A stretch of 64,000 nt of DNA from Chryseobacterium gleum (GTDB lineage: Bacteria; Bacteroidota; Bacteroidia; Flavobacteriales_D; Crocinitomicaceae): contig CAMAXI010000001.1 of assembly GCA_945862165.1 (NCBI GenBank), positions 186,001-250,000 on the forward strand. The letters run 5' to 3'. Below the pieces are notes generated by a model. That model ran no database searches and was not told where the DNA came from. It worked only from the letters and a program-made list of their open reading frames with translations. A program made the position numbers and the translations under genes. Shown piece after piece: positions 51,247 to 64,000 of the stretch (position 1 is its first letter; each line of letters starts with the position of its first letter).

Positions 51247-52341
51247 TTAGTTACCCTCATTATTTTCATTCAACTCAATTAATTCCAACCATTTCTTTTG
51301 TAACACCTCTTTTTTCGGTAATTTTAATTGGTAATCAGCAATCATAGCAGGATTCATACTTCTGCTAAGCGCATATTCAACCACTAAATCATCTTTGCCT
51401 TTACAAAGCAAAATACCAATACTTGGATTTTCATTCGGCTTTTTCACATCACGATCCAAGGCCTCCAAATAAAAATTGATTTGCGCTAAACTTTGTGGTG
51501 TAAATAGTTCTGTTTTCAATTCAACTGCAACTAAACATTGTAAATCTCGGTGATAAAATAATAAATCAATATAGAAATCTTGCATTCCAACGGAGAGTTT
51601 AAATTCTTCACCTACAAATAAAAAATCATTTCCGAGTTCTTTCATAAAAGAACTCAAATTTTTGATTAATGTTTTTCGTAGGGTTTGCTCTGAATGTAAA
51701 TCAGGAATATTTAAAAATTCAAAAATATAACTATCTCTAAATACGTTTGTAATATCTTGTGGGATGTGTTTTTGAAGTTGTTCTACTTGTTGATTTCCAA
51801 GCATCGTACGTTCAAAGGTTGCTGCTTTTATTTGTCTTCTCAAATCACGTACACTCCACCTTTCTTTTCGAGCCATAAGTATGTAATACAGTTTTTCTTC
51901 GGCTGTTTTACACGCTACTAATATCTCTAAATGATGCGTCCAAGTAATTTGTGTCATCACTGACGACACAAATATATCTACTTTATTATCAACACCTTCT
52001 AATTGTGTCATCACTGTCGACACAATTGACTTTTCAAGTAATTTTAATTGCGGTGAAACAGATTTTAGAAAATCATTACTCGAATACGTTTCATAAAACT
52101 GAACCATTCTATAAATACCTCTTTTTGTAAACCCTTTCAAAGTAGGTTCTTGTATTATCAAAAAGTCAGCTAATTGAGCAACTACTCCATCCCCCCATGA
52201 AGATGACTTTAATTTGGCACTAACATATTCTCCAACACTCCAATTTAAAAGTATCGACTCCTTATTTACCGCTTGATACGCTTTATTTCTTGCCTGAAAA
52301 ATCAGGCTTTTAATTTCCAAAAATTGGTTTTCTAGGTTCAT
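51247..52341 (-). CDS. DUF1016 (YhcG-like) PDDEXK nuclease family protein
   Basis: 364 aa. N-terminal DUF1016 helical domain and a C-terminal PDDEXK-type nuclease domain (about 250-345; FYIDLLFYHRDLQCLVAVELKTE, where D, E and K form the catalytic set). Two 27-bp dyad copies (51947-51973, 52001-52027) lie in the coding sequence and encode the duplicated VSTVMTQ / VSSVMTQ segment. It begins 8 nt after the GlcD-like gene on the same strand. Members are linked to DNA recombination or defence; function here not proven. Confidence 0.82.
   Translation of the reverse strand: MNLENQFLEIKSLIFQARNKAYQAVNKESILLNWSVGEYVSAKLKSSSWGDGVVAQLADFLIIQEPTLKGFTKRGIYRMVQFYETYSSNDFLKSVSPQLKLLEKSIVSTVMTQLEGVDNKVDIFVSSVMTQITWTHHLEILVACKTAEEKLYYILMARKERWSVRDLRRQIKAATFERTMLGNQQVEQLQKHIPQDITNVFRDSYIFEFLNIPDLHSEQTLRKTLIKNLSSFMKELGNDFLFVGEEFKLSVGMQDFYIDLLFYHRDLQCLVAVELKTELFTPQSLAQINFYLEALDRDVKKPNENPSIGILLCKGKDDLVVEYALSRSMNPAMIADYQLKLPKKEVLQKKWLELIELNENNEGN
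51947..52027. repeat. Two direct copies of a 27-bp hyphenated dyad inside the DUF1016 gene
   Basis: Each copy has 9-bp arms (ATTTGTGTC / GACACAAAT and AATTGTGTC / GACACAATT) around a 9-nt spacer ATCACTG(A/T)C. The copies are 54 bp (18 codons) apart, in frame, so the reading frame is kept. Confidence 0.85.
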
Positions 52342-54724: not shown

Positions 54725-54824
54725 ACGTATGATTTTAAAACAAAGATAAGGATAAAAATAGGATGTAATTTCTTTGGAAGTATAGGAAAATAATTAATAA
54801 ATTTACGAATCAACAGTGATCAAA

Positions 54825-55618: not shown

Positions 55619-55684
55619 ATGGTTTGGATACGATTCATTGGTACACACAAAGAATATGATAAGATTAACGCATCAACTATTTAA
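55619..55684 (+). pseudogene. HigB-type toxin remnant (last 21 codons)
   Basis: MVWIRFIGTHKEYDKINAST then I and TAA, with stop codons just upstream in the same frame. RFIGTHKEYDKI matches the C-terminal end of the HigB-like mRNA interferase family (PF09907 type). All upstream catalytic parts are missing. It sits 2 nt before the HigA ATG, exactly where an intact HigB would end. Confidence 0.8.
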
Positions 55685-55686
55685 TT

Positions 55687-56043
55687 ATGAATATTAAACC
55701 AATTAAAACGGAACAAGATTACCAAGAAGCGCTTGATCGTTTAGAGGTGATATTTGATGCTAAAAAAGGTTCGCCTGAAGGGGATGAATTGGAAATTTTA
55801 GGTCTACTTATTGAAAAATATGAAAGTATTCATTTTCCGATTGACCTACCCGATCCAATTGAAGCAATCAAATTTCGTATGGAACAAATGGGGTACTCAC
55901 AATCCGATTTGGTTAAAATCATTGGTTTAAAAAGTCGTGTGAGTGAAATTTTAAATAAAAAAAGAAAACTGACACTTGAGATGATTCGAAAAATACATGT
56001 AGCGTTAAATATTCCAACTGAAATTTTAGTTCAGTCTTACTAA
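55687..56043 (+). CDS. HigA-type antitoxin (HTH), orphan
   Basis: 118 aa. Residues 60-110 form an HTH_3-like helix-turn-helix (IKFRMEQMGYSQSDLVKIIG, SRVSEILNKKRKLT) and the N-terminal half has the PIKTEQDYQEALDRLEVIF pattern of HigA-family antitoxins. In HigBA systems it binds HigB and represses the operon; here HigB is reduced to a fragment, so the antitoxin is orphaned. It is followed by the first 108-bp repeat copy. Confidence 0.9.
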   Translation: MNIKPIKTEQDYQEALDRLEVIFDAKKGSPEGDELEILGLLIEKYESIHFPIDLPDPIEAIKFRMEQMGYSQSDLVKIIGLKSRVSEILNKKRKLTLEMIRKIHVALNIPTEILVQSY

Positions 56044-56081: not shown

Positions 56082-56189
56082 TTTACTGCAAAGTTCTGAA
56101 TTCCAATGTCTCTTACGAGAATCTTTCGACTGAGGCCTTTCATAGTGTTGCGTAGCGTCACCTTATTTTTATATTCCTAAGCTTCAAAT
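56082..56189 (+). repeat. 108-bp direct repeat, copy 1
   Basis: Identical over all 108 bases to 58194-58301 (offset 2112). It begins TTTACTGCAAAGTTCTG and ends CCTAAGCTTCAAAT. It lies between higA and the convergently placed TPR gene. Confidence 0.95.
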
Positions 56190-56224
56190 CATTAACATGA
56201 CTTACGCCATAATATAAAACTAAA

Positions 56225-57925
56225 CTAATATTTTTCCCATTTCCAATTTTGAGAGAGTATTTTATATTGTTGTAAATCTGTTTCACTTTTGCTTATCTGG
56301 TAACGAATAAGGAAGCATCTTGGATCTTTATTGTTTTTAAGAATCGCTTTATCAATTTCTTTCAAAGCATCCTCGTGTTTTTTTAATTGATTTAATACAG
56401 ATGCGCGATACATATTGATTCTATAACTTTTCATTTTTAACTCTTCTGCTTTATTAATATCATCAAGAACTTTATAAAAACACTTTTTTGTCTCTTCTCC
56501 CATACCTAAATTAAATCCTATTCCAAATTGTTCAATAGCTCGTGAAAGGTATAATTCAGGAGCATTTGGATTTTGCTTAATTATGGAATCAAAATGAATA
56601 ATTGTACCATTTGAACTTGATTTGTTATATCCAAATTCTTCTGACTTTAACCAATGTTTAAATGCTATTTTTTTTTCATTATTTAAATATTCTGCCATTG
56701 CAAGAGTAAAATAAGTATCCGCATATTCGGATGATCCTTGCGGACGGTCATTTAAATGATTATCAGGTATTGAGTCAATGGTTATTTTCAAATCTAAAAT
56801 TGCTCCTTTATAATCCTTTAGATATTTCATTTTAAAATTTGCCCTTTCAATGTTTGCGCCAATTTTATATTGAGAAATAGAGTATATTGTATCGTAATCT
56901 TCTAACGCTTTTTCATATTTTTTCATATTTATGAATAAATCTATTCTTGTTTCGTAATTTCTTACTTTGCTTTCCCATTCTTCATCCCAGTTATACTGTT
57001 TGCAGTGAATGGCATCGGATATGTTTTTAATTGCTTTTTCGTATTGCCCGGTTTGTGAATACGCAGTACAAAACAAGTATTGCATTTCGCAATTTATAGT
57101 TCCATTACTTTTTTCAATACCAACACCGATATCAATCAAAGCAAGTTCAGGCTGATTGTATCGTAAATAATATGCTGCTCTTTTGAGAAAATAGGAGGGT
57201 GGAAGATTTTTATCTAATAAAAAAGAAAGGTCAATTTTTAAATTATGTTCTAAATAACCTTCACAGGATAAATGCTTTACAGTAGTTGGAGTTAAGCCAT
57301 TCCCGATTAACCTTCTATTTTTATGAAAGTCATCACATATAAGACTTTCTGTATTTTTAAACCGGTAAAATTTAAAATATCCTTTTTGAATTACGAGGGA
57401 ATCCATCAAATCTCTTATCCCGGCTGGGTTTTCTCCAATTATTCCTACAAAATCAATGATCATCGTATCTTGGTTTCTCAAGATAAACATTCTTTGGTTT
57501 GATTGATTATCCAAGTACCCATCAACATCTATATCATCTGAGGGAGGAAGTAAAAACTTATAAACTAAACTATTAATTGCCCTATTAACTTTTTGATTTA
57601 ATAATCGTTGAAAAAGAAACGTTTCTTGATGAATTTTCTCACCATTTAAAATAAAAGTTCTGATTTTAATAGAAGAATCAGAAAAAAAATCTATCCTTTC
57701 AAGTTTTTCGTCGTATAAAGAACCTATTGATAAACCACCACCGCCACCTGGTTGCGCAAATAGTGGTCTGGAAAATAGAAGAAGATTTAAAATAATAAAG
57801 TAAATTAATTTGATGAACTGTCCGGTAGAGTAAAAACGCAGAACAAATGTCCATGAAACATGAAATAATCCACAAAGAATATAACTTTCTTTGTTGTTTG
57901 TTGTTTTTTTATGCACAGGTTTCAA
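56225..57925 (-). CDS. Secreted TPR protein, GGGGG-containing N-terminal family
   Basis: 566 aa. The signal peptide appears at about residues 36-58 (FIKLIYFIILNLLLFSRPLFAQ), preceded by about 35 residues that look unlike a start, so the real start may be a non-ATG codon further in. The mature protein begins PGGGGGLSIGSLYDEK, a Gly-rich opening common in Bacteroidota TPR proteins. Several TPR-like repeats follow (YFLKRAAYYLRYNQPELALI, ALEDYDTIYSIS, DALKEIDKAILKNNKDPRCF). It is framed by two perfect 108-bp direct repeats. Confidence 0.75.
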   Translation of the reverse strand: MKPVHKKTTNNKESYILCGLFHVSWTFVLRFYSTGQFIKLIYFIILNLLLFSRPLFAQPGGGGGLSIGSLYDEKLERIDFFSDSSIKIRTFILNGEKIHQETFLFQRLLNQKVNRAINSLVYKFLLPPSDDIDVDGYLDNQSNQRMFILRNQDTMIIDFVGIIGENPAGIRDLMDSLVIQKGYFKFYRFKNTESLICDDFHKNRRLIGNGLTPTTVKHLSCEGYLEHNLKIDLSFLLDKNLPPSYFLKRAAYYLRYNQPELALIDIGVGIEKSNGTINCEMQYLFCTAYSQTGQYEKAIKNISDAIHCKQYNWDEEWESKVRNYETRIDLFINMKKYEKALEDYDTIYSISQYKIGANIERANFKMKYLKDYKGAILDLKITIDSIPDNHLNDRPQGSSEYADTYFTLAMAEYLNNEKKIAFKHWLKSEEFGYNKSSSNGTIIHFDSIIKQNPNAPELYLSRAIEQFGIGFNLGMGEETKKCFYKVLDDINKAEELKMKSYRINMYRASVLNQLKKHEDALKEIDKAILKNNKDPRCFLIRYQISKSETDLQQYKILSQNWKWEKY

Positions 57926-58193
57926 TTTTATTGATTAACTGCCTTGTGTAGAACATTAGTTTTTAGCACAACTAATTTATAAACCTTGTAAAAATTGCTA
58001 TTATTTCAAAGAGATGTTAATCACCGTCATTTAATGCATTTTAGATTAAATATAACTAAAAATATAGAATTATCCTTTTCCCTGTGAGGTTGGTTTTTAA
58101 TCCTGTACTAAATATCAAAAAAAGTAACAAAAGTTAATACCAATAAAAACCCGTACACCACGGTTAATCGAAGCCTCCATTAACACGATTAGG

Positions 58194-58301
58194 TTTACTG
58201 CAAAGTTCTGAATTCCAATGTCTCTTACGAGAATCTTTCGACTGAGGCCTTTCATAGTGTTGCGTAGCGTCACCTTATTTTTATATTCCTAAGCTTCAAA
58301 T
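58194..58301 (+). repeat. 108-bp direct repeat, copy 2
   Basis: Exact copy of 56082-56189 in the same orientation. The two enclose the TPR protein gene and its upstream DNA, 2.1 kb apart. Confidence 0.95.
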
Positions 58302-58637
58302 TAGAATGTACGGGTCCTCCTTGCGAAGTAGATCTCATAGCCAATCTTTGATGGTCGGATCGTGGTGTAAAAATACTAAGAAGTTAATAAACATAAATAT
58401 AAAATTGGCCTCGAACCACATAAATTATACATGAAAGTCTTTGTTCTTTCATCTTTCAGTCTTTTATCTTAATAAAAAGTTATAATCATACTTACAACTT
58501 TCATCTTTTTTAGCAAAAGTTGTAGTTATACTTTAAACTTATAGGAGTTTTATATGTAAATGGACACACACCAAGGAATTTCAGTGATCAGTTTAATGGA
58601 ATTTTTGGAATGGGAATAACAAAAAGAGGAATCGATT

Positions 58638-58754: not shown

Positions 58755-59969
58755 ATGGACATACTTTTTGAAATATCCGAACGACTAATTCGAGGTTTAT
58801 CAACGCATTTTCAGCGATATTTATCTAAAAAAATAGAGTGGGACAACCGACTTATTGAAATAAAAGGTGCGAGAGGTACAGGTAAAACAACCTTAATGCT
58901 CCAGCGAGCAAAAGAATTACAAAAAAAACACCTTGTTTTGTACACCTCTTTAGATTTGCCTTATTTTTATACAAATTCCATATTTGATTTAGCAGATACT
59001 TTTTATAAAAGTGGAGGAAACTATTTGTTTTTAGATGAAATTCATAAATATCCAAATGTTAAACTAGGCCAAGATTGGTCGAATGAATTGAAAGCAATCT
59101 ATGACTCATTCCCAGAGTTAAGAATCGTATACTCAAGTTCTTCCTTACTTCATCTCTATAAGGGAAATGGAGATCTAAGTAGACGAAAAGTTTCCTACGA
59201 ATTATATGGTTTATCGTACCGAGAGTTTTTAAACTTTCAATATGGGGAAAAATTCGAAGCAGTTCCGTTAAGCGAACTCTTGTCCAATCACATACAAATC
59301 GCTCGGGAAATAAATGAACGGATTAAGCCGCTAGCAAATTTTAATGAATACTTGCAAATTGGTTATTACCCATTTTTTAAAGAATCAAAATCAAATTATC
59401 CTGCTCGATTATTAAATATTATCAACCTAATTATTGAAAGTGATATACCTGCTGTAGTTTCAGCCCCGTCTGAAAACACGGAGAAGTTAAAGAAATTATT
59501 AGGCGCAATTAGCTCAACCGTACCATATACACCAAATATCAAAGCACTATCCAATCATTTATCCATTGCTGATTATCGAACTACGCTTAAATACTTGAAT
59601 TTATTGGAACATGGTGGATTAATCAAGCAACTTTCAGCGAACAGTATTGGAAATAAAATACTACAAAAACCTGATAAAATATACATTCAAAACACCAACC
59701 TACTGCACGTACTCGCTCCAAAAAACACAGAAACCGGAACAATACGAGAAACGTTTTTTTACAACCAACTACTCACCGAACATCAAGTAACCTATCCCAA
59801 AATAGGTGATTTTTTTATCGATCAACATATTTTGTTTGAAGTCGGTGGAAAGTCAAAAACACAAAAACAACTCGAGTCCTACGACGGCGAAAAATATATT
59901 GTTGCCGATAACATCGAAATTGGTTTTGGAAATAAAGTTCCGTTGTGGATGTTTGGATTTTTGTATTAA
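58755..59969 (+). CDS. AAA_14/DUF4143 family ATPase
   Basis: 404 aa. N-terminal P-loop domain with Walker A GARGTGKTT (38-46) and Walker B LFLDE (91-95), plus sensor-type SSSSLLHLYKGN. The C-terminal DUF4143 part (about 220-404) contains the winged-helix SNHLSIADYRTTLKYLNLLEHGGLI and the restriction-endonuclease-like end with FEVGGKSK. This two-part layout is typical of a widespread family of unknown role. It is solitary, with a dyad upstream; an attC-like dyad begins 2 nt after its stop. Confidence 0.88.
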   Translation: MDILFEISERLIRGLSTHFQRYLSKKIEWDNRLIEIKGARGTGKTTLMLQRAKELQKKHLVLYTSLDLPYFYTNSIFDLADTFYKSGGNYLFLDEIHKYPNVKLGQDWSNELKAIYDSFPELRIVYSSSSLLHLYKGNGDLSRRKVSYELYGLSYREFLNFQYGEKFEAVPLSELLSNHIQIAREINERIKPLANFNEYLQIGYYPFFKESKSNYPARLLNIINLIIESDIPAVVSAPSENTEKLKKLLGAISSTVPYTPNIKALSNHLSIADYRTTLKYLNLLEHGGLIKQLSANSIGNKILQKPDKIYIQNTNLLHVLAPKNTETGTIRETFFYNQLLTEHQVTYPKIGDFFIDQHILFEVGGKSKTQKQLESYDGEKYIVADNIEIGFGNKVPLWMFGFLY

Positions 59970-59970
59970 A

Positions 59971-60012
59971 TACTAAACCAACTAAAATGTCGTTTGTTGT
60001 TAGGGTGTTAGG
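59971..60012 (+). repeat. attC-like imperfect dyad, copy a
   Basis: Begins TACTAAACCAAC, core AAAATGTCGTTTG, ends GTTAGGGTGTTAGG. It starts directly after the ATPase stop codon. Copies b (61584-61626) and c (61837-61880) share this layout and orientation. Confidence 0.55.
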
Positions 60013-60083
60013 AGTAGATTGATTAATTTAGAGAAAACAAAAACTCATAAGACCTATACTATTGAGTTGATAACTAAAATACA

Positions 60084-60725
60084 ATGCTAAAACTACTTCT
60101 TTTATTTCTTTTTTTCAGTTTTCTAGCGGTTGCTCAAAGAGACTATTCTAAAATGGATACAACCAATATTTATAAAAAAGAATATTATGATTCTTTAGTA
60201 GCGGTTTATCATGATAAGGATCGGAACACAATTAATTTTAAAGATAATTATAACAATACTATATACTTCGGAAATTGGTATCAACCATCTGGTGGCAAAA
60301 GTGCATTTTCAGAAATAGTAAAGATTAATAATTCAGTAAATAATTTACGATTAATAAATTTTTATGATAAGTTAACTTTAAAGTTAATTGAGACATATTT
60401 TATAGATAGTTGTCGAAATAAAATTGGTTTCGGATACAAATACAATGACTCATTAAAAAAATTCGATCTTATTAATCACGATTTGAATTATAAAATTGAT
60501 GTAATTAAAGCAAAAAAAATAATTAAAAAACGTCTTATGTCAATTAAAGACACACGAAAATTTGATTATAGTAATGATCATTTGTGTTTAAAAAAGATTA
60601 AAATAGATGGAGTTTCTGCATATCAAATTGATTATCAATTAACAGATACAATGGCATTAATTTGTACAATGAATGCTAAGAACGGAAAAATTCTCTCTAT
60701 TCGTTATTTCTTCAGTAATTATTAA
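60084..60725 (+). CDS. Secreted protein of unknown function
   Basis: 213 aa with a signal peptide (MLKLLLLFLFFSFLAVAQ). The C-terminal 50 residues (CLKKIKIDGVSAYQIDYQ, MNAKNGKILSIRYFF) have a PepSY-like look; otherwise no family recognised. AT-rich. It follows attC-like copy a and is the first of several plus-strand secreted genes. Confidence 0.65.
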   Translation: MLKLLLLFLFFSFLAVAQRDYSKMDTTNIYKKEYYDSLVAVYHDKDRNTINFKDNYNNTIYFGNWYQPSGGKSAFSEIVKINNSVNNLRLINFYDKLTLKLIETYFIDSCRNKIGFGYKYNDSLKKFDLINHDLNYKIDVIKAKKIIKKRLMSIKDTRKFDYSNDHLCLKKIKIDGVSAYQIDYQLTDTMALICTMNAKNGKILSIRYFFSNY

Positions 60726-61048
60726 TATTTTTTTAATTAGAATATGCCCACAACAGAAAAATACTACCCAGCACTTTCAGACCTCATTAGTATCAATGAA
60801 ATAAATCATGCTCCGCTGAGCTGGATTTTTAATCCTGCTCCAAAAAATTAAGTAAATACGCTATACTTGATTTATACCGCCTAGCAGCAACGAAATTAAT
60901 CCTGCACAAACTTGGCCTCCAGAATTTGAAAGCAAGTCCACAATTAAAGAATTTGCTAAATCAAATAAAAATCATAAATTTAAAGTATAGCTTAACTTAG
61001 TCTCCAGAATTGAAGGCAAGTCCATTTAAAAAGAAATAATTATAACCT
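60726..61048. other. Intergenic region with REP-like words and a short direct repeat
   Basis: Contains the GCTGGATTTTTAATCCTGC type repeat (60810-60842), ACCGCCTAGCAGCAACG...TTAATCCTGC (60871-60905), and a direct repeat CTCCAGAATTGAA-GCAAGTCCA at 60914-60948 and 60999-61030. A 35-codon frame at 60744-60851 (MPTTEKYYPALSDLISINE) runs into the repeat and may be a truncated gene start. No convincing gene. Confidence 0.55.
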
Positions 61049-61543
61049 ATGAAAAACATAACTAAATATCTTACAACCTTAAGTCTTCTTATTTTACTAC
61101 TTCCATTTCTTCAAACCTGTACAAACCAAGAGTTGAAAAATCCTGAATATGTAGGCCACGAAAAAAATCCCTTAAATTACAATAAGGAAAAGAGTAAGAA
61201 AGTAAAAAGTGAAAGCACCTTTAATGGATATAAAATAGCTTTTTCTGTTTTTAAAAATGAACCTAAAAAAATAAATATAGACGATGCTATTTTGGCAGAT
61301 TATTTTATGTTAACTAGTGTTCTAATTTCTATATTTCTTTGCATACTTTCATTTTTCAATAGGTTTAATGCCATTATATTTTATTCAACTGGTATAAATA
61401 TTTTGTTAGTAATACTTAGTGTATATGTGTTTAAAAAATCAGGAATCCTAAGAGAGTTTCATCAAGTCAAAATAGGCTATTATTTATATACCATTAATTT
61501 GATTTTAATTGCTTTATTTTCTAAAAGAAAGCTAGCGCGCTGA
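61049..61543 (+). CDS. Membrane lipoprotein-like protein of unknown function
   Basis: 164 aa. A hydrophobic start (MKNITKYLTTLSLLILLLPFLQTC) with a lipobox-like cysteine is followed by a charged stretch (about 30-75) and three membrane segments (about 84-102, 108-130, 146-160). No family recognised. It is followed at 61584 by attC-like copy b. Confidence 0.65.
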   Translation: MKNITKYLTTLSLLILLLPFLQTCTNQELKNPEYVGHEKNPLNYNKEKSKKVKSESTFNGYKIAFSVFKNEPKKINIDDAILADYFMLTSVLISIFLCILSFFNRFNAIIFYSTGINILLVILSVYVFKKSGILREFHQVKIGYYLYTINLILIALFSKRKLAR

Positions 61544-61583
61544 GCAGGATTTTGTATCGCGGAGCAGCTAGAAAATAAACTCT

Positions 61584-61626
61584 ACACTAAACCAACGAAA
61601 ATTGCGTTTAGCGTTAGTAAGTTATG
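61584..61626 (+). repeat. attC-like imperfect dyad, copy b
   Basis: Begins ACACTAAACCAACG, core AAAATTGCGTTTAG, ends CGTTAGTAAGTTATG. The outer and inner parts can pair imperfectly (AACG with CGTT, AAA with TTT). Confidence 0.5.
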
Positions 61627-61836
61627 TGAAGATTGAGTAATTTTAGTTTGATGGAAATTAATCGCAGGATTACAAATCCAGCGAAGCAGGATGAGTAATA
61701 TCCTGTCTAAAATTGATTTGTATTCCAATTTGAAACCATAAACTAATACATTCCCGCTGTGTTGAATTTAGACCTCATAGCAGCAACGATGTTGTCCAAG
61801 CTCTAAACCAACCAATCAAAAACATATCTTTACCAA

Positions 61837-61880
61837 AACACTAAACCAACGAAAATGTCATTTGGAGTTAGGGTGTTAGG
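61837..61880 (+). repeat. attC-like imperfect dyad, copy c
   Basis: AACAC pairs with GTGTT, CCAAC with GTTAGG, and AAATG with CATTT. It ends GTGTTAGGT; GTTAGGT fits the integron R' core GTTRRRY. It lies 36 nt upstream of the 537-aa secreted protein gene. Confidence 0.55.
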
Positions 61881-61916
61881 TAAAGAATAGTTATTTTAGT
61901 TAACTATAAAATTAAC

Positions 61917-63530
61917 ATGAAAAAAATTCTTGTATTAATATCCATTCTTTGTCTAATCTGTGTAACCTGTGGTGCTCAAATCAAAACTTCAGGTTCAAAA
62001 AAACGAAGCATTTCATCAAGTATCAAAGATTCAATAACAACAACAGAAAAGAAGAATAATACAACGAAGAGCATCTTAAATAGTTTTTACGATGACGAAG
62101 GGTATTTATTAGCATATGAAGACTTACCCAACTTGAAAGGTTATAATCCAAACAAACCTATATTAGAGAATGAAGAGGAAGCATTAAACTATATACTTTC
62201 AAATATTGACTTTGTTTGTAATTATAATCCAGGATTTTACAAAAGCGATATATTATATTTTAAAATTAAAAATGGAAAAATCACTAATGTAGATCATGAT
62301 AAAGCAACAATATTTAAAGATTCTTTATTTTACAAAAAAATCAAATTGAATCAAAAGAGTTTACCCAATTTTTATATACCAATAGCTTATCTTTATTCTA
62401 AAAAATTATCTACAAAACGAATTTCAACCTATCAATTGGAAATTTTACACACTAATAATAAACGATATTACGATTCTATTACTCTAAAAAAAGAAATAAA
62501 GAAAAATTTGAAAACAGGAAAATATCAAACTTTAACATCTAAAGAGTTGAATTTGATTATTCGTCTGAATTTGAATTATAATTATAAAATCAAACCTGAA
62601 AATTGTATTTTGGAAAGAGGTGATCTGGTTATTGATACAACACAATTAGAAATAGATCCTAGGTATGGCTGTTTAATTTCCGAAGAATCAGAATATAGGT
62701 TTAAGAGAATGTTTAGAATAAAAGATCAAAATTTAGTTCAGGTTAAAAAGGATGATTATTCATACAAGAATATAGATATAATCTATTTTAATGATTCCTC
62801 ATTATTAAGAATTACAAATAATTATAATAATCGGTTTAAAATATATTATGATTCATCTTTGATATTCAATATGCAAGACACTATTACTGGAAACTATTTT
62901 ATTAGAAATCCATTAGTTAAAGATAAGTTGATTTTTATACACAGCGAAATAGGCGAACAATCAGGATATTCTAAACAACTTATAGAAGTTGATTCATATG
63001 AAAAAATGAAAAAATTTCGTTTTGGGTTATATAAAAAATATATCTTATATAAAATTAAAGGGAGTTCCTCTGTAAAAAAAGATTCAATCATTTATTTATT
63101 AGTAAATAAAAAAGAAAAGAAAAAAATATCAAAAAATAAAATAATTTATGTTTCTAAAGGCTGTAATAACACTGAAAATAAAAGTGTTAATTATTTTCAT
63201 TTGATCTACGATCAAAAATTTGATTACATAAATTGTGATAGTGAAAATGTTCATTTAGTTAATAATGAAATTCTTTGTTTTTTATCTACAAATCCCTATA
63301 AATCTGATTATTCCTCTAGTGAGTCAATTGAAAATGAGCAAAAATCAACAAAAGCAAATATATATAGAGTTAAAATTGTTCGTTATCTATATTATAGTCC
63401 AACCAATTTTTTAATTAATTCAGTAAAAAATTTTAAATATCAATGTAGGGTTGGTTTTAATGCAAAGAAAAATGACCCAACGGGTAAATACAAAGATCCG
63501 ATTATTTATTATTTAGAAAAAGGGTTATAA
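61917..63530 (+). CDS. Secreted protein of unknown function
   Basis: 537 aa with a signal peptide (MKKILVLISILCLICVTCGAQ, with a Cys that could be a lipid site). The mature part is rich in Lys, Asn, Ile and Tyr, with no recognised domain. Low GC content. It follows attC-like copy c and is convergent with the partial gene at the window end. Confidence 0.65.
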   Translation: MKKILVLISILCLICVTCGAQIKTSGSKKRSISSSIKDSITTTEKKNNTTKSILNSFYDDEGYLLAYEDLPNLKGYNPNKPILENEEEALNYILSNIDFVCNYNPGFYKSDILYFKIKNGKITNVDHDKATIFKDSLFYKKIKLNQKSLPNFYIPIAYLYSKKLSTKRISTYQLEILHTNNKRYYDSITLKKEIKKNLKTGKYQTLTSKELNLIIRLNLNYNYKIKPENCILERGDLVIDTTQLEIDPRYGCLISEESEYRFKRMFRIKDQNLVQVKKDDYSYKNIDIIYFNDSSLLRITNNYNNRFKIYYDSSLIFNMQDTITGNYFIRNPLVKDKLIFIHSEIGEQSGYSKQLIEVDSYEKMKKFRFGLYKKYILYKIKGSSSVKKDSIIYLLVNKKEKKKISKNKIIYVSKGCNNTENKSVNYFHLIYDQKFDYINCDSENVHLVNNEILCFLSTNPYKSDYSSSESIENEQKSTKANIYRVKIVRYLYYSPTNFLINSVKNFKYQCRVGFNAKKNDPTGKYKDPIIYYLEKGL

Positions 63531-63559
63531 CCCCCTCCCCCAACAAATCACCATAATCA

Positions 63560-63991
63560 TTAACGAACAAACTTTTTTCTTATCGATTTATTATTAGCTT
63601 GTAATATTTCAATTTCTACTACGTTTGGCGTAACTTTTTTTATTTGCAAATCCCCATAGAGTTGACTAAGCGAACAAGTAATATAATCGCACGTTTTCAA
63701 GTTCATTAGTAGTTTATCTGTCTTGCGATTAATGTCATAAAGCATCAAACTATCCGTGTCTTTACAGTAAAGTAATAACTCATTTTTTTCATCCGAGTCT
63801 ATCATAAAACCTTGAACTAGTTGAGATGCATCGCTTTTTCGTATCAGTTGCATTTCGAGTGGATTTCCGGAACCATAGGCTTGTACAAAGGCAAAACAAT
63901 CATTAAAATCCGCTCCTATATAACCTAAATTTTTCGTGACAATCCCATAACCCATTTCGTTTAACGTATCGATTGTTTTCTGCCCTCTCAT
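63560..63991 (-). CDS. Hypothetical protein, N terminus beyond window
   Basis: 143 aa visible from the ATG at 63991. The frame stays open upstream to the window edge and no signal peptide is seen at that ATG, so this is probably the C-terminal part of a longer protein. Beta-strand rich, with blade-like segments (GADFNDCFAFVQAYGSGN, ELLLYCKDTDSLMLYDINRK). No family recognised. Confidence 0.55.
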   Translation of the reverse strand: MRGQKTIDTLNEMGYGIVTKNLGYIGADFNDCFAFVQAYGSGNPLEMQLIRKSDASQLVQGFMIDSDEKNELLLYCKDTDSLMLYDINRKTDKLLMNLKTCDYITCSLSQLYGDLQIKKVTPNVVEIEILQANNKSIRKKFVR

Positions 63992-64000
63992 AAGGGTAAG

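Follow-up and report, generated by a model that had tools for sequence, protein, structure and literature searches.

A probable 6S RNA gene and its truncated duplicate flank a TPR-like protein gene

Organization of the TPR locus

The 64,000-nt stretch of DNA analyzed here (the window, from genome G000) carries a gene for a TPR-like protein (56225..57925, minus strand, 566 aa, TTG start as listed) between two direct repeats. As the initial annotation had claimed, the repeats are identical 108-bp copies: positions 56082–56189 and 58194–58301 match with 100% identity at an offset of 2112, a pair with a chance expectation of ~1e-51 for 64 kb of the window's composition, and identity is lost sharply at both ends. 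The proposed genome-wide search for further copies detected exactly two in the 2.89-Mb, 38-contig genome and no third one; the 108-bp repeats are not a repeat family. Nor is the repeat free-standing. The right copy (58194..58301, minus strand) is the middle of a longer conserved element at ~58145–58365, roughly nt 62–169 of a ~218-nt RNA, and the left copy (56082..56189, minus strand) is a truncated duplicate, a promoterless partial copy of the RNA gene with element positions 52–159 only. The intact gene, which codes for a structured and probably 6S RNA, was located by conservation, a covariance model and covariation at 58145..58365 of the minus strand, with its 5′ end near 58362–58365 and its 3′ U-run at 58145–58149; its degenerate −7-like promoter box (TATTTTTA, 58368..58375, minus strand) was read by eye. 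A HigA-like antitoxin gene (HTH_3 domain match, 55687..56043, plus strand) lies left of the partial copy, and an AAA_14/DUF4143 ATPase gene (58755..59969, plus strand), part of a low-divergence block described below, is the nearest gene beyond the RNA gene. Before HigA, at ~55629–55684, we recognized by eye the residual 3′ end of a gene for a HigB toxin (nucleotide match from 55599); the gene is intact in the congener G010 (PF09907).

The initial annotation had placed one secreted TPR gene between the repeats. This gene is indeed the sole ORF of at least 80 aa between the copies, but its TPR match is weak (Pfam TPR_14, 23.2 bits against a cut-off of 23.5, with all TPR matches under their cut-offs), and “secreted” stands for a hydrophobic leader seen by eye. 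Among 240 genomes of the family, a full-length homolog of the protein occurred only in G010, with one TPR gene in each of G000 and G010 and weak partial similarity in G003, G012 and G046. The protein gave no match in the defence library. A phage origin was rejected for want of a phage match to the protein, a plasmid origin because the unit DNA has no plasmid match and the protein one distant plasmid homolog only (Hymenobacter monticola, 24.5% identity, query residues 53–510), and a transposon reading because no transposase or recombinase match was present among the ORFs of the unit. We also rejected the repeat as a hairpin recombination site, since folding of the 108-bp copy and its short flanks, whether as DNA or RNA, was not superior to that of shuffled sequences, and dropped a strict REP-like palindrome as the unit boundary, with only 2 matches in the window. 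The TPR gene is located downstream of the RNA gene on the same strand, and read-through from the RNA promoter into it is possible.

Conservation, structure and identity of the RNA gene

The ~226-bp block around the right repeat was found by blastn at 90–100% identity in 6 of 12 other congeners, once in five and twice in G010, and on its left flank the alignment ends at the block's edge in most congeners that carry it. The remaining six, whose genomes are 59–94% complete, gave no match to the block by blastn or the covariance model. This model, built from seven sequences and run with strict filters on the 240 family genomes, matched 93 of them, 90 with a single match; more than one match occurred only in G000, G010 and G126, and two of these three represent the same TPR insertion. 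The intact RNA of the window was matched at 58146–58333 (contig 244146–244333) with 225 bits and the left partial copy with 104 bits. The two full-length matches in G126, a 75%-complete genome, lie on different contigs (L096, L097) and are either a real second copy or mixed strains. A search of viral contigs with a degenerate pattern of the RNA gave no match.

Single-sequence folding of the whole RNA stayed near shuffles (z −0.44 for the window RNA strand and −1.25 for G007), so that the case for RNA structure rests on covariation. In the homolog from G029, which belongs to another genus, three closing-stem pairs are changed on both sides and still pair, with six such pairs in total. Over 50 aligned members, 91.3% of cells were paired compared to 75.0% in shuffled and ≤49.8% in slid controls, and 45 of 52 pairs showed both-sided changes in this alignment, which was fitted to the model and so favours pairing; the same model-fitted alignment exhibits a conserved long rod-like structure with large bulges, as expected of 6S RNA. 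A T5 run (the U-run) terminates the RNA in 48 of the 50 members. The exact TAnnTTTG sequence, which we take to be the Bacteroidota −7 promoter motif, appeared near the RNA start in 17 of 50 members versus 2.1 in shuffles, 13 of the 17 at −43 to −41; the box of the window's own RNA is a degenerate form of this motif, with the exact motif at the matching place in other members. A protein-coding reading of the block was rejected: an ORF runs through it in G007 and G011, but other members are one base short there, and the substitutions appear mostly non-synonymous by eye. Conservation and covariation mark the block as a minus-strand gene for a conserved structured RNA.

The surroundings of this gene are rearranged within the genus, because its neighbours differ in G007 and G011. 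The G007 gene (L014:202-422) has a 231-aa gene and then clpX, as read by eye, for neighbours, and the G011 gene (L015:3023-3232) adjoins a 397-aa gene with a weak similarity (26% over 137 positions) to the AAA/DUF4143 protein of the window.

The RNA is most likely the unannotated 6S RNA of this genus, judging from its structure and its overlap with Rfam models in relatives. In an Rfam scan of the full set of 50 model loci or equivalent loci, RF01693 (6S-Bacteroidales), described in Rfam as “6S-Bacteroidales RNA suggested”, matched full-length at the place and strand of the RNA in 19 of the 43 loci outside the genus and in none of six congeners (2/16, 15/19 and 2/14 over the three locus batches), with every match below the cut-off (best 58.3 bits against 60). 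RF01685 (6S-Flavo) matched four loci of other genera (L083, L094, L098 and L067), likewise full-length at this place and strand, and all under its cut-off as well. The window's own RNA matched no Rfam 6S model, nor any Rfam model at all; the sole RF01693 match in its genome was at chance level and on another contig (21 bits, E 0.28), and a genome-wide run in 40 relatives, 25 of them in the family, gave 0/40 above the cut-off of either model. The 147 of 240 family genomes that lack a covariance model match under the strict filters, including 6 of the 12 other congeners, count against the 6S assignment, an absence that is odd for a housekeeping RNA unless the gene has diverged or is unassembled. 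Bacteroidales-1 was rated a likely RNA in the paper listing it (PMC2864571), and a transcriptome study of Bacteroides reports a 6S RNA with pRNA evidence (PMC7366714). We infer a 6S function for the RNA.

Insertion states and probable exchange among congeners

Three states of the locus were met within the genus. G008 carries the RNA gene without the TPR gene, and the places that match window positions 54760 and 58140 are only 4 bases apart there. In G010, the same TPR gene is flanked by the complete RNA gene on one side and on the other by a partial copy that consists of element positions 3–159 plus ~27 bp of flank, the two copies differing at 5/184 positions. In the window, the partial copy starts 38 bp past the HigA stop codon and its outer part is gone compared to G010, as is a ~4.6-kb stretch with six genes that separates HigA from the partial copy in G010. 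The “recent duplication” of the initial annotation thus survives as a duplication, of part of a conserved RNA gene, but not as a brand-new one: it predates the arrangement now seen in the window, because G010 shares it in a longer and diverged form. The same comparison makes an assembly artefact, in which a short repeat was mis-joined, very improbable; such an error would fit a 38-contig draft in which identity ends sharply on both sides, but the separate G010 assembly reproduces the gene order with a partial copy that is distinct, longer and diverged. It also seems unlikely that the RNA gene region was simply duplicated, in tandem or as a segment, and then partly lost, next to a TPR gene that was already in place and had not come with this event. 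Such a scenario would agree with the decay and trimming of partial copies seen in both genomes, but it needs more steps, and the TPR gene occurs once per genome and never beside a single RNA gene in the congeners.

Divergence between G000 and G010 differed strongly along the locus. Third codon positions differed at 93/466, 38/260 and 58/629 sites in three genes taken as core, and at 11/567 and 3/405 sites in the TPR and AAA genes, respectively, giving 1.4% for TPR plus AAA compared to 14% for the core (Fisher p 3.5e-31); the corresponding counts outside this test were 8/119 for HigA, 9/214 for a 213-aa gene and 1/342 for DUF1016. Because the TPR and AAA genes diverge far less between the two genomes than the core genes, the TPR-RNA-AAA block seems to have been exchanged recently, after the species separated, presumably by homologous recombination.

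The initial annotation had also offered gene conversion as a source of the identity of the repeats, and the congener comparison makes this likely. Per 108 positions, the G000 and G010 partial copies differ from each other at 4, the G010 pair at 4 and the window pair at 0, and the probability of zero differences in the window pair is 0.02 to 0.13, depending on the assumed rate. At the one informative site, the partial copy of G010 retains a base present in four congeners, while that of the window agrees with the intact copies. This modest evidence, also compatible with chance, makes it likely, if not proven, that conversion rendered the window pair identical.

On the 5′ side of the RNA gene, an integron-like array extends to a peptidase U32 gene, from window positions 59970–64000 on to ~255617 of contig C1 (L016, L048). 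Its palindromic repeat is present in 7 copies of one orientation (contig 245968–255617) and nowhere else in the genome, with three copies in the window (59970–60029, 61584–61643 and 61838–61897) and four more beyond it; among 59 genomes the repeat occurred in six, all within the genus. The units are shuffled: the order of the DUF1016 and 177-aa genes in G010 is the reverse of that in G000, and the breaks in homology fall within copies of the repeat. The interval between the RNA gene and U32 measures ~0.1 kb in G001, 1.1 in G008, 7.5 in G010 and 11.6 in G000. We rejected the TPR unit as an integron cassette, since all 7 array repeats lie right of the RNA gene and none at the ends of the TPR gene. 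Another contig of the genome, C17, codes for a 387-aa tyrosine recombinase (L033:1210-2373), whose best NCBIfam match is an integron integrase at 217.8 bits (cut-off 265), in an alignment that skips the central part of the profile; the adjoining gene (L033:2464-3459) has 39% identity over 339 positions to the AAA/DUF4143 protein of the window. No integrase like that of C17 was found in the fetched arrays. A DUF1016-type gene elsewhere in the window (51247–52341) matches the candidate defence models PDC-S02 and has ~30% identity to the DUF1016 unit of the array.

Proposed history and known systems

We consider the probable history of the locus to be a partial duplication of the putative 6S RNA gene around an inserted TPR gene, followed by trimming and conversion in the window lineage. 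An ancestor would have gained the TPR gene directly downstream of the 6S-type RNA gene through recombination with the RNA gene as anchor. The donor could have been a circle that bore the TPR gene together with part of 6S and integrated at this site, or a linear fragment with one homologous and one illegitimate junction. Either route would duplicate the 3′ part of the RNA gene and ~27 bp of adjoining sequence distal to the TPR gene, a state that G010 still shows. The TPR-RNA-AAA block may then have been swapped between the two species, after which a deletion in the window lineage would have trimmed the outer end of the partial copy to 108 bp, and conversion by the intact copy would probably have made the pair identical. 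We infer the insertion mechanism and the trimming from sequence comparison, with a single insertion event seen.

This history alters what recombination between the repeats would do. The excisable unit that the initial annotation had considered is hypothetical, with no recombinase gene seen between the repeats. According to the same annotation, the TPR gene would be deleted and a single copy would remain, which is formally true, but in the window the product would not be a complete RNA gene. The predicted product comprises element positions 52–228, missing the 3′ closing strand of the RNA and the terminator, whereas the corresponding product in G010 (element positions 3–228) is the complete gene. 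Loss of the TPR gene by recombination would therefore be costly in the window, because it would drop the 3′ end of the RNA, provided that the RNA is needed.

Genomic islands at tRNA and tmRNA genes carry the 3′ part of the gene and so restore their target, and site-specific integration could give the same arrangement here, with the 6S gene as attachment site and the TPR unit as a small island that carries the gene's 3′ part and whose integrase acts in trans or was lost. G010, where the insert is bordered by the intact RNA gene and, at its distal end, by the 3′ part of that gene, has the arrangement expected for an RNA-gene-targeted island, and tyrosine recombinases are present elsewhere in the genome. 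Three observations nevertheless make this origin doubtful: no recombinase or integrase gene, the hallmark taken for such an island, was seen between the repeats; the shared block extends ~27 bp beyond the RNA end; and more than one model match is rare (3/93 genomes, two with the same insertion). No report of 6S/ssrS as an integration site was found in a literature search that covered titles and abstract openings, which is no proof of absence. A more speculative and less likely idea is that the 6S RNA gene anchors a gene-trading site, where integron-like single-gene units would be shuffled on the 5′ side, cargo, for instance the TPR gene, would enter on the 3′ side with the RNA gene's own 3′ part as attachment site, and trimming of the outer copy would lock the cargo in, since its loss by recombination would destroy the RNA.

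An unexplained repeat has thereby become a named candidate gene, a probable 6S RNA uncalled by the two Bacteroidota 6S models of Rfam, and one genus displays the insertion of a gene beside a regulatory RNA gene in its uninserted (G008), duplicated (G010) and trimmed (window) states. The trimmed state suggests that the remnant of a duplication can make an insertion costly to lose.

The putative RNA shares with Bacteroidales-1/6S-Bacteroidales (RF01693) and 6S-Flavo (RF01685) the long bulged rod, the U-run end and, in most genomes where the model finds it, the single copy, but in the window and six congeners it is too diverged to match these models. Bacteroidota are listed among the phyla with integrons in one paper (PMC8618304), and a complete integron was reported in Salinibacter in another (PMC9024848). 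Like the cassette arrays of integrons, among them integrase-free clusters of attC sites, the array on the 5′ side combines single-gene units, a palindromic repeat in one orientation and an order that varies among relatives; the genome has no integrase above the integron cut-off, and the repeats are candidate attC sites. The TPR unit resembles the islands at tRNA and tmRNA genes in that its insert is flanked by the intact RNA gene at one end and by a duplicate of the gene's 3′ part at the other, most clearly in G010, but here the target is a 6S-type RNA, the insert is a one-gene unit of 2.1 kb in which no integrase was seen, and the outer copy in the window, trimmed to element positions 52–159, is without the RNA 3′ end. 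The kind of event is thus familiar, and what is unusual is the 6S-type target and the locked-in state.
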